Program-made: the position numbers and the translations under genes | IMG/VR virus record: IMGVR_UViG_3300025577_000060 | Span: 1-24,386 of that record | DNA length: 24,386 nucleotides | Source: a virus | Direction: 5' to 3' (one strand) | Notes under the pieces: generated by a model | Database searches by the model: none | What the model was told of the DNA's origin: nothing | Seen by the model: the letters and a program-made list of their open reading frames with translations, nothing else | Shown here: piece after piece, positions 2,846 to 23,346 of the stretch | Position numbering within the stretch: the stretch's first letter is position 1 | Layout: each line of letters starts with the position of its first letter

Positions 2846-3468
2846 TCTTCTGATAACTCTCCATCCTTATACTTATCAAACCAAGGCCCACCGTTAGTAT
2901 AATGTATCGCTTTTATGTCATCATTTTTTTCGTAATAACCTACTAAGTGATTATATTTAACGGGTATCTCAGCTATCTCACTATCATCTACCCACTCAAA
3001 CTGATGTAATTGCTGTGGTGTAGCATTGTCTAAATATTCTTTAGTTAATATACCTTTTAATTTCTCACAGTTAAATACCATTAATGAACTCCAACATTTC
3101 TTTGGGTACATTTTGTTTTTAACTCCATCCATCTTTGTTCCTTTAACATCATCAATTTTATGTTTTACAACCGCTACTGTTTTATCTCCTAAGTACTGCA
3201 CAATCTCTTCAGGATCACACTTCCAAACGAAGTCATTATCACAGAAGATGGCTATGCCATTCCAGTTGTTACACAAAGGTGTATAAAACCTTGTAAAAGA
3301 AAATTCTGTTGATTCATTAGGCACATCTTTTCTACCATAAATACCACGCTTAATTAGCTGCGCTTTTACTAAAGACATAACCTCGTGATCACCGTTGTCT
3401 AGTATAGACTTTCTAACTACTTTTGTAGCTTGCGGATGACGTGAATCACTTCCTATAAATATTCTCAT
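2818..3468 (-). CDS. GT8-like nucleotide-sugar glycosyltransferase
   Basis: This 216-residue protein opens with a Rossmann-like strand and substrate pocket pattern (MRIFIGSDSRHPQATKVVRK). It has an STEFSFTRFYTPL segment, a DxD metal and nucleotide-sugar motif in AIFCDNDFVWKCDP, and a late AIHYTNGGPWF. This order is typical of GT-A glycosyltransferases near family GT8. Donor and acceptor are unknown. It starts in an ATGA overlap with kdsA and is followed by the GT29-like gene, so the two transferases probably act on the same glycan. A role in sugar decoration of DNA cannot be excluded from sequence alone. Confidence 0.7.
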   Translation of the reverse strand: MRIFIGSDSRHPQATKVVRKSILDNGDHEVMSLVKAQLIKRGIYGRKDVPNESTEFSFTRFYTPLCNNWNGIAIFCDNDFVWKCDPEEIVQYLGDKTVAVVKHKIDDVKGTKMDGVKNKMYPKKCWSSLMVFNCEKLKGILTKEYLDNATPQQLHQFEWVDDSEIAEIPVKYNHLVGYYEKNDDIKAIHYTNGGPWFDKYKDGELSEEWWSVYNSL

Positions 3469-4223
3469 GCTATAAATTTTAATATTGTTTCAAAATTATT
3501 TAACGGTACCATGTTAGGACCATCGCTTAAAGCGTTGTCTGGGTCAGGGTGTACTTCAAAGAAGTAACCATCAACATCAACTGCTTGTGCTAACTTAGCT
3601 ATGTATGGTGCATACTTTCTATCACCACCACTTTTATTGCCAAGAGCGCTAGGCTTTTGAGTTGAATGAGTAACGTCCATAACTATAGGTACGTTAAATT
3701 TTTTCATATCTAGTATCTGTCGGAAATCTACAACTAAGTTACCTAAACCAAACATAGTTCCACGCTCAGTTACCATTATATTATTATTACACGTGGATTG
3801 CACTTTTTTAATTGGGTGCTCCATGTTGTTACCACTCATAAACTGTGCCTTCTTTATATTTACGGTCTTACCTGTTCTGCCGGCTGCAAGTAAAAGATCT
3901 GTTTGTCTACATAAAAAAGCAGGTATTTGTATAACATCAACAACATCTTTAACTTGTATAGCTTGTATAGGTTCGTGTATGTCTGTTGTTATTTGAACAT
4001 CAAACTCTTTTTTAACTTTAGCTAGTATTTCTAATCCCTCTTGTAAACCTGGTCCTCTGTATGAGTCTACAGAAGTTCTGTTTGCTTTATCAAATGAAGC
4101 TTTAAATATGTAATCAAAACCATACTTAGCTGTAAGTTCTTTTACTTTCTCTGCTATTTTCATGCATGTGTACTCGCTTTCTATAACACATGGTCCTGAT
4201 ATTATAAACTTATCCATTAACAT
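3465..4223 (-). CDS. kdsA: 3-deoxy-8-phosphooctulonate (Kdo-8-P) synthase
   Basis: The enzyme condenses arabinose-5-phosphate with phosphoenolpyruvate to Kdo-8-phosphate in the cytoplasm. Hallmarks visible in the 252 residues are SGPCVIES (about 9-16), FKASFDKANRTS then YRGPGL (40-60), FLCRQTDLL, VNIKKAQF, VTERGTMFGLGNLVVDF and DVTHSTQ. The four metal positions of the metal-dependent class are present: C12, H186, E223 and D234 (Aquifex C11, H185, E222, D233). It is therefore predicted to be metal-dependent, unlike the E. coli type, which has Asn at the Cys site. Length is slightly short (usual 260-285). It overlaps kdsB by 14 nt and the GT8-like gene by 4 nt. An alternative ATG lies 6 nt downstream. 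Confidence 0.93.
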   Translation of the reverse strand: MLMDKFIISGPCVIESEYTCMKIAEKVKELTAKYGFDYIFKASFDKANRTSVDSYRGPGLQEGLEILAKVKKEFDVQITTDIHEPIQAIQVKDVVDVIQIPAFLCRQTDLLLAAGRTGKTVNIKKAQFMSGNNMEHPIKKVQSTCNNNIMVTERGTMFGLGNLVVDFRQILDMKKFNVPIVMDVTHSTQKPSALGNKSGGDRKYAPYIAKLAQAVDVDGYFFEVHPDPDNALSDGPNMVPLNNFETILKFIA

Positions 4224-4842
4224 CTTCTTGTGTATTTATTTCTCTACCTTCATATTTAACCTCACATACTTTAATATCATATAAACCTAAATATCTATTT
4301 TGTTCTAAGTTTTCTTGTGGATATTCATCATCTAATAAGTCATAACACTGTAAAGCGTATGGTCTATACATATATATACCAAGGTGTCTATCACCATAAC
4401 CAATATCAGATCTAGTAAACCACATAGCTTTACCTGCTTGATGTACAACCTTAACACCGTTTGGCTCGTAACCTTTTGTGTAAGCTGTGTATACTACAAA
4501 ATTATTTTTAGCTCTATCAATAAAAGGCTTTACAGTTTTATGTGTTATATCTATCATGTCACCCTGTATATTGATTATAGTTTGATACTGGTTTAAAAAT
4601 TCATGAGCTTGAGCTATTCTAGCTGTCCCATTTTCTGCCTCATGAGACATGATAACATTGTTGCTAGGTATAACTTCTGCTATTTTAGGACTATCAGTTA
4701 TAACAAATGTATCATAACCCATAGTACGTACTTTATCAAATACTATACGTATTAGTGGCTCATCATCAAACATCATAAGCATTTTATGTTTTAGCCTAGT
4801 ACTCTCTAGTCTAGCTGGTATTACAAATACTATATCTTTCAT
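4210..4842 (-). CDS. kdsB: 3-deoxy-manno-octulosonate cytidylyltransferase (CMP-Kdo synthetase)
   Basis: KdsB activates Kdo with CTP to CMP-Kdo. The 210-residue protein has the N-terminal nucleotide-binding signature VIPARLESTRLKHKML and the NGTARIA segment (KdsB usually has GTDRIAE). It also has INIQGDMID (usually NVQGDEP), HLGIYMYRPYAL, PQENLEQNRYL and the end motif INTQEDV (usually IDTPEDL). Length is below the usual 240-255, with the middle shortened; the family core seems complete. It starts in an ATGA overlap with the cupin gene and runs into kdsA, so Kdo-8-P synthesis and activation are encoded together. No KdsC phosphatase or KdsD isomerase is visible, so those steps would come from the host. 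Confidence 0.9.
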   Translation of the reverse strand: MKDIVFVIPARLESTRLKHKMLMMFDDEPLIRIVFDKVRTMGYDTFVITDSPKIAEVIPSNNVIMSHEAENGTARIAQAHEFLNQYQTIINIQGDMIDITHKTVKPFIDRAKNNFVVYTAYTKGYEPNGVKVVHQAGKAMWFTRSDIGYGDRHLGIYMYRPYALQCYDLLDDEYPQENLEQNRYLGLYDIKVCEVKYEGREINTQEDVNG

Positions 4843-20931: not shown

Positions 20932-21153
20932 TTAGTATTTAGTATTAAACATGGTTTCAGGCCAAAGAATATCAGTTGATGATACACCACCGAATGCTCT
21001 GATCTGCTTAATATCGCCGATAGTTAGCTCGTTGTAGTATCTAGTAGACTTTAGTCTTTCAACAACACCACTAACGCTTACAGCGTACTTGTCACTGTTA
21101 CTGTGTAACCTTGACTTAATTTCTGGTTTTAGTTTTTGGTATAAATTTTTCAT
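20932..21153 (-). CDS. 73-residue unknown protein
   Basis: The protein reads MKNLYQKLKPEIKSRLHSNS, then DKYAVSVSGVVERLKSTRYY and NELTIGDIKQIRAFGGVSST, ending DILWPETMFNTKY. A helix-rich N-terminus followed by 'LTIGDIKQIRAF' might be a small HTH or ribosome-type fold, but this is not clear. It starts 4 nt after a copy of the 31-bp element (21158-21188), so it may be the first gene of a transcript. Confidence 0.65.
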   Translation of the reverse strand: MKNLYQKLKPEIKSRLHSNSDKYAVSVSGVVERLKSTRYYNELTIGDIKQIRAFGGVSSTDILWPETMFNTKY

Positions 21154-21157
21154 ATCA

Positions 21158-21188
21158 ATATTATCTATTAGTAATCGTATTTACTTTG
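21158..21188 (-). promoter_or_regulatory. 31-bp repeated element, copy D
   Basis: On the minus strand this copy reads CAAAGTAAATACGA, 7 nt, then TAGATAATA. It spans the final codons and stop of the 21168-21392 gene and the short gap to the next start. Compared with the other five copies it keeps all positions of TAGATAATA and AAATACGA. Confidence 0.6.
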
Positions 21189-21392
21189 TATAACTTTTAA
21201 TTCCTCTTCAATTTCCTCTCTGTGGTGAAGTATATCGTCACAGTAGGCTAACATATCTATCAGACCATTTCTTTCGTGTTCTGTTAGATCTCTATAATCG
21301 CCGTCATTTATGGCGTCCAAGCAGTCGCTTAAAGCTCTACTTGTATTCTCGAATCTGCAATAACTCATATTCATATCGGTAACAGTAGGCAT
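21168..21392 (-). CDS. Unknown phage protein (MSYCRFENT motif)
   Basis: From ATG 21392 the 74-residue protein reads MPTVTDMNMSYCRFENTSRA, then LSDCLDAINDGDYRDLTEHE and RNGLIDMLAYCDDILHHREE. The 'MSYCRFENTxxALxDCxDAxNDG...L...ER...I..C.DI' text is one I remember from small conserved phage proteins of unknown function. A GTG at 21413 and an ATG at 21368 (MSYCRFENT) are alternative starts. The chosen ATG lies in one arm of a 9-bp inverted repeat (21381-21389 with 21435-21443), so its translation may depend on RNA folding. Confidence 0.65.
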   Translation of the reverse strand: MPTVTDMNMSYCRFENTSRALSDCLDAINDGDYRDLTEHERNGLIDMLAYCDDILHHREEIEEELKVIQSKYDY

Positions 21393-21443
21393 TGCGACTC
21401 GGTAACGCTGCACCCTTCTTGTCCAGGCTTGGTACCTACTGTT
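21381..21443 (-). repeat. 9-bp inverted repeat flanking a translation start
   Basis: AACAGTAGG (minus strand 21443-21435) pairs perfectly with CCTACTGTT (21389-21381), leaving 45 nt between. The 3' arm covers codons 2-4 after ATG 21392. In RNA this could hide or present the start codon. Confidence 0.4.
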
Positions 21444-21447
21444 TAAG

Positions 21448-21555
21448 AGATCAGTGGAGGAATCGAACCTCCATTGTTTTCAACACATGATCAACTGTGT
21501 TTCCTGTATTACTTGATGCGTAAACTTAATTACGTCGCAAGTCCATACCTGATCT
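21448..21555 (-). ncRNA. tRNA-like RNA candidate: acceptor-like helix plus consensus T-arm
   Basis: AGATCAG at the 5' end pairs perfectly with CTGATCT at the 3' end (7 bp). Just before the 3' strand is a T-arm with TGGAGG/CCTCCA and the loop TTCGATT, matching the tRNA T-loop rule. The 108-nt span is too long for a normal tRNA. The D side is replaced by a hairpin (CGTAA, 6-nt loop, TTACG, with an outer ACTTG/CAAGT). An AACACA/TGTGTT hairpin has an 8-nt loop with TTGATC in it. There is no CCA in the DNA. It may be a decayed tRNA, a tRNA mimic or another structured RNA. Confidence 0.4.
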
Positions 21556-21668
21556 GCGCTCTCGACCCTTGAAAGTCTTACATCTGCTTTGTACTCCTAT
21601 TTAAGATATACTCTGTACTCTTAATTTGAAGTGCATCAATGCTTTCTAGGTTTAGAGCTTATATACAA

Positions 21669-21890
21669 CTATATGTTTCTTAACATAGTGCCGTAACCTC
21701 TGCGCTCGGTTAGCTTACGTATACGTTTCGCCTGTGCTTTCGGCATAATTTGGATAGTGTTGCCGGTTTTGTGGTATGTGAGTGCCACACAGCCATAAGG
21801 TTCAACAGTGGAACAGTCGACGCAAGAGGTATAACCTAGTGCCAACCGTGCTTGAGGTATTATATTTTTATTACATTTGTTACATATCAT
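21669..21890 (-). CDS. Small zinc-ribbon-like phage protein
   Basis: The 73-residue protein reads MICNKCNKNIIPQARLALGY, then TSCVDCSTVEPYGCVALTYH and KTGNTIQIMPKAQAKRIRKL. Two CxxC pairs (residues 3-6 and 23-26) probably bind zinc. The text 'ALGYxxCVDCSxVExxGCVxxxxHKTGNTI' is familiar from conserved phage proteins of unknown role. A copy of the 31-bp element ends 5 nt before its ATG, suggesting its own promoter. The stretch downstream to 21414 is non-coding and carries the tRNA-like element. Confidence 0.75.
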   Translation of the reverse strand: MICNKCNKNIIPQARLALGYTSCVDCSTVEPYGCVALTYHKTGNTIQIMPKAQAKRIRKLTERRGYGTMLRNI

Positions 21891-21894
21891 ATAA

Positions 21895-21925
21895 ATATTA
21901 TCTAATAGTTGTCGTATTTATATTG
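21895..21925 (-). promoter_or_regulatory. 31-bp repeated element, copy A
   Basis: On the minus strand this copy reads CAATATAAATACGA, 7 nt, then TAGATAATA, just upstream of the zinc-ribbon gene. The part AATACGACAACTATTAG resembles the T7 RNA polymerase promoter AATACGACTCACTATAG at 11 of 17 positions. It also contains TATAAATA. Confidence 0.65.
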
Positions 21926-22868: not shown

Positions 22869-22971
22869 TAAACTCATCACTTGAATCTAACCTGTCATAC
22901 CAGTTATCTAAAACCATTTGTATTTCTTCTGAGGTTAGTATAGTTATCCTATTATTATTAGTGTTATCCAT
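22861..22971 (-). CDS. 36-residue acidic micro-protein
   Basis: The ATG 22971 to TAA frame encodes MDNTNNNRITILTSEEIQMV followed by LDNWYDRLDSSDEFTM. It reads like a small helical domain (LTSEEIQMVLDNWYDRL). It overlaps the upstream membrane micro-peptide by 28 nt in another frame, and its end lies in element copy B. It could be a real early micro-gene; no family is known to me. Confidence 0.4.
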   Translation of the reverse strand: MDNTNNNRITILTSEEIQMVLDNWYDRLDSSDEFTM

Positions 22972-23042
22972 AGTAGTAATGTTAAAAGTGTTAAGAAAGT
23001 TATAGACATTAGTGTCTCTGTAATTAGTTTATTATTCTTCAT
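22944..23042 (-). CDS. 32-residue membrane micro-peptide
   Basis: The ATG 23042 to TAA frame encodes MKNNKLITETLMSITFLTLL followed by TLLLWITLIIIG. A basic N-terminus and one hydrophobic helix of about 20 residues suggest a small membrane protein. Function is unknown. Support is limited to composition and its place in a chain of small genes. Confidence 0.4.
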   Translation of the reverse strand: MKNNKLITETLMSITFLTLLTLLLWITLIIIG

Positions 23043-23060
23043 AGTAAGTTGTAATTTAGT

Positions 23061-23103
23061 TCTAGTGTGAGTAGTCGAAACCCACCTCTGCTCCAAGACT
23101 AGA
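23061..23103 (-). ncRNA. Mini tRNA-like hairpin candidate (T-arm plus short closing helix)
   Basis: TCTAGT at the 5' side pairs with ACTAGA at the 3' side (6 bp). Inside, 13 nt (CTTGGAGCAGAGG) precede a T-arm-like hairpin TGGGT-TTCGACT-ACTCA whose loop fits the tRNA T-loop rule. No full cloverleaf can be built. It sits between the 75-residue gene and the membrane micro-peptide. It may be a tRNA remnant or a structured leader. It resembles the candidate at 21448-21555 in design. Confidence 0.3.
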
Positions 23104-23118: not shown

Positions 23119-23346
23119 TTAAACTAACTCTTTATCTCTAAGTACTAATGGAATATTATTAGTAGCAGTGTAACTCTTATACTTTAACCAACATGGTAAG
23201 TTAGTGAGAGTATCTTTCATTATATTAAATACTTTATCGTGTGAGTAAGTAATTTCTTTTCCTTTTTTATTAGTGAAAGTTATGTTTGTGTTTGTATTAA
23301 GAAGACTTTTTCTTACTACAAATCTTTTAGAAGTGATTGTATTCAT
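23119..23346 (-). CDS. 75-residue unknown basic protein (MNTITSKRF start)
   Basis: The protein reads MNTITSKRFVVRKSLLNTNT, then NITFTNKKGKEITYSHDKVF and NIMKDTLTNLPCWLKYKSYT, ending PLVLRDKELV. It has a beta-like first half and helical second half; no family is recognised. It is preceded by element copy C 34 nt upstream and by the leader ACAACTATGAATACAAT, shared with the 22673-22825 gene. Confidence 0.65.
   Translation of the reverse strand: MNTITSKRFVVRKSLLNTNTNITFTNKKGKEITYSHDKVFNIMKDTLTNLPCWLKYKSYTATNNIPLVLRDKELV

Follow-up and report, generated by a model that had tools for sequence, protein, structure and literature searches.

Exchangeable tRNA-like structures as candidate mRNA-processing signals in a phage lineage

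Ahead of their genes, a group of related phages carries tRNA-like structures (TLS) that may serve as exchangeable RNase Z/RNase P processing signals setting the 5′ ends of messenger RNAs. We give this explanation, in which cleavage is deduced from sequence features, an even chance of being right. The features on which it draws, namely structure, covariation, a GG dinucleotide, a tail, start-codon geometry and exchange before the same gene, are displayed by the sequences themselves. The window (the whole 24,386-nt stretch analysed, positions 1 to 24,386 of IMG/VR record IMGVR_UViG_3300025577_000060) contributes a four-armed member of this set that exceeds chance by fold, homology and covariation.

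Results

A structured tRNA-like RNA on the minus strand of the window

The RNA lies on the minus strand at 21554-21448, a strand that an earlier note on this DNA had not given, and spans positions 1-73 of a tRNA-like fold that we call class W. Its minimum free energy is -34.2 kcal/mol, compared with -22.3 kcal/mol (sd 3.2) for shuffled sequences (z -3.7), and 0 of 200 shuffles folded equally low. The minimum-energy fold contains an acceptor, a hairpin at the D position, an anticodon-like arm and a T-arm, and thus holds the T-arm (GGAGG-TTCGATT-CCTCC), D-position hairpin and 8-nt anticodon-like loop (GUUGAUCA, 21488-21495) that the earlier note had picked out. The perfect 7-bp acceptor-like helix of that note, AGATCAG/CTGATCT, forms with all seven pairs in the window, but its outermost pair, between positions -1 and 73, is available to 3 of the 8 aligned members, the other 5 having A.A there; the conserved acceptor has 6 bp (5′ strand 21549-21554, 3′ strand 21449-21454). 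It stacks on a 6-bp T-stem (arm at 21455-21473), giving 12 pairs, as in tRNA, and both helices are 100% paired across the alignment; the T-loop is the consensus UUCGAUU. What had been described as a hairpin replacing the D-arm is an arm at 21506-21548 with a 4-bp stem, GUAU/AUAC, whose overgrown loop holds both a GG (21543-21544) and an extra hairpin; this stem is predicted by the fold and, being nearly invariant, lies outside covariation support. The anticodon-like arm (21482-21501) has a 6-bp stem, unpaired in one relative (L027) as aligned, and loop letters U-U-G-A-U-C in the window versus U-A-G-A-U-C in most relatives. We also considered that the palindromic loop letters (TGATCA, AGATCT) might support kissing dimers, and set the idea aside. 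Position 73 is followed by C74-U75 (21446-21447), and the next base is U in the window and A in most relatives, such that positions 74-76 read CUU, a tail found after 3 of the 106 T-arms surveyed below.

IMG/VR pattern scans, which over loci from at least 120 stretches returned 123 matches, mostly chance, yielded seven full-length relatives and one ending at a contig end, the true ones being chosen by eye (L001, L013, L027, L030, L034, L071, L079 and L130). Our alignment of 8 sequences, A2, leaves out the relative at the contig end (L071) and two RNAs, L251 and L304, that share acceptor and T-arm and have differing bodies. Its 22 named pairs are standard in 96.6% of cells, and 7 of the 22 change on both sides (4 of 6 in the acceptor, 2 of 6 in the anticodon-like arm, 1 of 6 in the T-stem), a count matched by 1 of 500 shuffles; because the sequences are few and related, these covariation figures are not probabilities. 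No shuffle reached the covariation score, and sliding the partners by 1 to 3 columns lowered the paired cells to 30-46%. By one of five covariation measures, further pair types, the alignment scored 7 against 9.9, below every shuffle. A covariance model built from A2 added L251, L071 and L304 at E<1e-5, its weaker matches (E 5e-4 to 1) being mostly other TLS and tRNAs; model R1 gives the window RNA 105.7 bits, with the window one of its own input sequences. Folds of single relatives varied: L013 reached z -1.67 (11/200 shuffles equally low) without the D-like stem, L304 reached z -0.69 (39/200), and L027 formed a different second arm. We set aside an integrase attachment site at the window RNA because both acceptor strands covary.

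The RNA is tRNA-like and yet no normal tRNA, as the earlier note held: together with the tRNA-type fold and the covariation among relatives stands an ARAGORN run that returned 0 tRNA or tmRNA genes in the window and no gene at the counterpart of this RNA in 7 relatives (22 related loci run). The anticodon-like loop has 8 nt in place of 7 nt with U33. Rfam at gathering thresholds gave no match on the window, L001 or L002, and at E<=10 window positions 21300-21700 gave four matches, miRNA-type and uc_338, all far below cut-offs and of chance type. A group I intron suspected by eye beside the L002 element likewise had no Rfam match, and DNA similarity of the region to named phages came to three short weak matches, none credible.

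Phage group and probable hosts

Window genes supported by searches include a primase-helicase, a thymidylate synthase domain and an ATP-dependent ligase domain; ribonucleotide reductase subunits were recognized by eye, and sigma-70 region 2 gave a weak match. Two ORFs at 3465-4842 (minus strand) resemble, by eye, sugar-acid enzymes (a KDO-type synthase and a CMP-sugar transferase). Among named phages, the primase is closest to that of Cellulophaga phage phi10:1 (42.8% identity), and its relatives are encoded in at least 562 IMG/VR stretches, of which we used the best 80. Bacterial and archaeal assemblies held 13 related primase loci, 7 in Bacteroidota-named MAGs and 6 in MAGs otherwise named, phage contigs being easily misbinned. 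Shine-Dalgarno (SD) motifs are not enriched before ORFs of at least 100 aa in seven records (14/328 versus 16.1 in shuffles), which fits Bacteroidota (PMC6847099, in excerpt). The hosts of the group are probably marine Bacteroidota.

A set of TLS with a phage-specific tail and start codons at position 76

We scanned 88 records (80 primase loci and 12 earlier contigs, 92 in all, minus 4 duplicates) for T-arms, defined as a TTCGANY loop on a 5-bp stem. These hold 106 T-arms, 36 within ARAGORN tRNAs and 70 in TLS, counts inflated by kinship, as some records are near-identical (for example L243 and L244). T-arms occur in 52 of the 88 records, on a single strand within each; the 36 records without a T-arm of this form are partly short loci, and also include one of 66 kb (G010). 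A T-arm plus CTA pattern matched 62 times in 40 records, one strand in each, versus 4 times for the reversed control, and was missing from 9 of the 40, the window's record included. By acceptor and insert, 68 TLS sort into class W (10), class A (27), mini (22) and other (9), the remaining two having their acceptor partner outside the available DNA. The first GG falls 2-4 nt past the 5′ acceptor strand in 61 of 68 TLS (background 0.084), a count that uses a hand-set acceptor partner for G003 21204 and becomes 60 with the automatic one. In tRNA, G18 and G19 join the T-loop to form the elbow read by RNase P, RNase Z and the CCA-adding enzyme (PMC4810234, in excerpt), and the GG of TLS could apparently form such an elbow.

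CUA occupies positions 74-76 in 55 of 70 TLS and 33 of 36 tRNAs (88/106 together). In four MAGs with related primase loci, CTA follows 1 of 110 GGTTCGANTCC sites at that distance, and this lone site looks class W by eye; the tail is therefore a mark of the phages. CCA is encoded after 2 of the 110 MAG sites, MAG tRNAs being mostly CCA-less. A U just downstream favours RNase Z, which prefers CU. RNase Z matures CCA-less tRNAs by cutting directly after the discriminator (PMC8549757, in excerpt).

An ATG starts exactly at position 76 in 20 of 70 TLS, as CTATG in 19 and CCATG in 1, and in 17 of the 20 it opens an ORF of at least 30 aa, in 12 gene clusters; of 113 random positions, about 1.7 would open such ORFs at this distance. 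An earlier pattern run on 20 records gave 14 matches, of which 12 had exactly this leader length where a range of 18 was allowed. Other common leaders measure 13-15 and 19-21 nt, like those after true tRNAs, and for 18 of 70 TLS no ORF of at least 30 aa starts within the stretch searched.

This geometry bears on whether a TLS might control translation in cis while uncut, blocking or recruiting the ribosome at the adjacent AUG, a reading that we regard as quite improbable, as we do its likening to an internal initiation element or a ligand-controlled leader. Besides an acceptor end that stops two nt short of the AUG in 20 of 70 TLS, it can draw on an A at -3 in 15 of the 20, a base that favours initiation in F. 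johnsoniae (PMC6847099, in excerpt). The AUG, however, adjoins the acceptor end, away from the decoding end, a placement more in keeping with end processing than with ribosome mimicry. Structure near start sites reduces initiation, according to the same excerpt, and an uncut acceptor helix 2 bases before the AUG should therefore hinder it. Further, true tRNAs occupy the same places, and excision is their normal fate.

Class A resembles tagless tmRNA

In all 27 class A TLS, a 5′ strand GGG pairs with UCC, giving G3.U70, and position 73 is A; none ends in CCC, and four pair types occur at 4-69. It is G3.U70 that confers alanine identity. Class W lacks G3.U70, with U-A or C-G at pair 3-70. All nine short class A loci match Rfam tmRNA families below the cut-offs: seven match RF00023 with E values no higher than 4e-5 (best 29.9 bits, E 1e-9), L325 follows at E 0.001, and L333 contributes a fragment only, to beta_tmRNA at E 0.009. 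T-arm fragments from four loci outside class A also reach tmRNA models (E 0.02-0.4), and three class W loci gave no match to tmRNA families. Class A thus resembles, in sequence, a tagless tmRNA. The compact tmRNA-like relic suggested by the earlier note accordingly does not describe the window RNA, which has no match to RF00023 at the curated cut-off and, at 107 nt, no room for the usual tmRNA messenger part, but comes close for this sister class, which stands before homologues of the same genes.

The class A pattern occurs in at least 121 places in at least 120 IMG/VR loci. The matches listed comprise 68 ARAGORN tmRNAs, 1 tRNA, 25 class-A-like RNAs and 27 unassigned; one of the 68 (L406) is a TLS of the phage group with a doubtful tag. 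Among the class-A-like RNAs listed, 7 of 25 encode CCA, and some sit in other phages. Seven tagless tmRNA-like RNAs end in CCA with no start codon at the end (L347, L348, L361, L369, L374, L404 and L417; L347 and L404 are alike, as are L348 and L417), and look like tmRNA reduced to its tRNA-like domain (TLD). In G012 and G018, a conserved hairpin, AGGTTATGGCACTTGCC...ATAACCT, precedes class A.

The processed RNA might itself be the functional product and mimic tRNA or tmRNA in trans, with the downstream gene merely co-transcribed. We think this unlikely; examples of such action would be titration of SmpB, of AlaRS, of the CCA-adding enzyme or of a defence nuclease that cuts tRNA. The G3.U70 and A73 of all 27 class A TLS, their Rfam tmRNA matches and the conserved class W body speak for it, as does the TLD-only tmRNA on record for mycobacteriophage DS6A, with a similar RNA inhibiting tmRNA, perhaps by titrating SmpB (PMC4131195, in excerpt). 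SmpB was found in 0 of 24 phage records versus 10 of 14 control genomes. A mimic in trans nonetheless leaves unexplained both the AUG at position 76 before 12 gene clusters and the replacement by true tRNAs ahead of one and the same gene, and class W is without G3.U70.

Different tRNA-like RNAs stand before the same gene

The gene downstream of the window RNA (21168-21374, minus strand) encodes 68 aa of a family that we call NMSYCRF, a PHROG of unknown function, and tblastn against named phages gave no match. We placed its ATG at 21374 because its homologues begin MNMSYCRF; with this start, the gene-free stretch around the RNA, given in the earlier note as 255 nt, becomes 294 nt (21375-21668). 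The upstream gene (21669-21890, minus strand) has homologues in most related contigs.

Homologues of the NMSYCRF gene are preceded by class W with a 2-nt leader (G002, G007), by class A with a 20-21 nt leader (L254, L304) or by tRNA-Met with a 20-21 nt leader (L271, L274, L302). A second gene, MEHPNA, follows class A (2 nt), tRNA-Met (3 or 20 nt) or tRNA-Gln (21 nt), and a third gene cluster follows class W at 2 nt or other TLS at 34-60 nt. Across the set, then, a tRNA-like 3′ end lies at a fixed distance and is replaceable by true tRNAs, the distance in the window being 73 nt. What is conserved before a gene, judging by these loci, is a tRNA-like 3′ end and no particular RNA. This exchange at one gene is the strongest argument for a processing role.

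The tRNA-Met and tRNA-Gln genes before homologues of the same genes would also be expected if TLS were decayed, functionless remnants of tRNA or tmRNA genes that happen to survive where the genome is rich in tRNAs. We hold this to be very unlikely, and do not favour the decayed tRNA suggested in the earlier note: the acceptor, T-stem and anticodon-like arm carry compensatory changes, and such RNAs are found again and again in front of genes. Moreover, G3.U70 persists in 27 of 27 class A TLS though the neighbouring pair 4-69 takes four pair types, and start codons fall repeatedly at exactly position 76. The window RNA may still derive from a tRNA.

In the window itself, the AUG of the NMSYCRF gene lies behind a second hairpin (21381-21443, minus strand; z -1.96, 6/200 shuffles equally low), and sequence similar to this region also follows the TLS in G005 and L251. 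A cut at the window RNA would therefore give a message with 73 nt of structured leader, and within the window this is what tells most against the tight form of the processing model.

The window holds a second TLS, of the minihelix type, at 23060-23103 (minus strand), about 44 nt long with a GG linker and a T-arm. Its acceptor covaries in relatives (UCUAGU/ACUAGA versus UCUCUU/AAGAGA), and its fold is no better than that of shuffles (z -0.01). It lies downstream of an ORF at 23119-23346 (minus strand), and 17 nt past it begins a short ORF of 32 aa (22944-23042, minus strand).

Several other motifs recur nearby. A gene leader, TAAATACGAnnACnnnTAGATAATATTnATATG, is repeated on the minus strand at about 21153-21180 and 21890-21925, and also after several TLS in relatives; it may act as a promoter or translation leader of the phage. 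Upstream of the TLS in L013, L030, L034 and L130 lies a small hairpin, TAGG-TTTGATCA-CCTA, with a loop similar to the anticodon-like one of the window RNA. A stretch close to AAAGCAGATGT recurs before a TLS or tRNA in L254, L271, L013 and the window.

Discussion

Under the processing explanation, host tRNA-maturation enzymes would recognize TLS inside polycistronic phage transcripts. Each TLS would retain the half of a tRNA that these enzymes read, consisting of the acceptor/T-arm helix, the T-loop and, apparently, the elbow GG, leaving the remainder of the fold free to vary or vanish. RNase Z would cut past position 73, ahead of C-U-A, and RNase P may cut the 5′ side. The message so freed would begin CUAUG, with its 5′ end 2 nt ahead of the start codon, or CUA plus a short A/U-rich leader, and a small stable RNA would be released as well. 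If a cuttable tRNA-like 3′ end at a fixed place is what matters, true tRNAs, tagless tmRNA-like RNAs and minihelices should for that reason be interchangeable. We infer transcription, cleavage, the enzymes involved and the gain for translation from the arrangement of these sequences.

Class W conserves more of its body than a cutting signal would require, which counts against a model of processing only and suggests that the released class W RNA may have a task of its own. Further points against the processing explanation are the CUU tail in the window, the 18 TLS followed by no ORF of at least 30 aa, the 36 records lacking a T-arm of the form scanned, the 9 records lacking the CTA pattern, and minihelix folds that do no better than shuffles. 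In its broadest form, the proposal is that phages of one lineage, infecting SD-less hosts, use host tRNA-maturation enzymes to shape their messages. Their kit would consist of interchangeable tRNAs, tagless tmRNA-like RNAs, minihelices and a four-armed TLS, each positioned for RNase Z to make leaderless (CU-AUG) or short-leader mRNA, position 76 doubling as the A of AUG; we put this a little short of an even chance.

Were the RNAs cut, processing could generate leaderless messages in hosts with ribosomes that disregard SD sequences. The TLS also offer graded, naturally occurring reductions of the tRNA fold, the smallest about 44 nt, on which the requirements of RNase Z, RNase P and the CCA-adding enzyme could be tested. 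A literature search at the level of the titles and abstracts listed, in which subscription journals are poorly covered and whose silence is weak evidence, found no tRNA-like processing signals at phage start codons.

Among known RNAs, class A is closest to tmRNA, including the TLD-only tmRNA of DS6A, with which it shares G3.U70, A73, a D-loop-like GG and T-arm/acceptor sequence; unlike tmRNA, the window's class W is without alanine identity and tmRNA model match. The class A relatives would join the one TLD-only phage tmRNA named in the excerpted text of PMC4131195. M3 RNA, C4 RNA and plant-virus TLS are phage and virus RNAs cut by RNase P (PMC11143913, in excerpt), and resemble the RNAs proposed here as viral non-tRNA substrates of that enzyme; in contrast, the excerpt does not describe them as lying before start codons or as replaceable by tRNAs. 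The overall pattern also has counterparts in eukaryotic cells. At the 3′ end of MALAT1, mascRNA, a tRNA-like RNA of reduced form, defines one end of a second RNA, although it is nuclear, eukaryotic and sets the 3′ end. In mitochondria, the tRNA punctuation of transcripts, an organelle feature, relies on tRNAs that lie between genes and are excised by tRNA enzymes to make mRNA ends. The phage genes are likewise separated by tRNA folds, but the mitochondrial signals are true tRNAs, whereas the phage set mostly lacks a decoding arm and its cutting is deduced. If these RNAs are cut, the phages would have evolved a form of tRNA punctuation.
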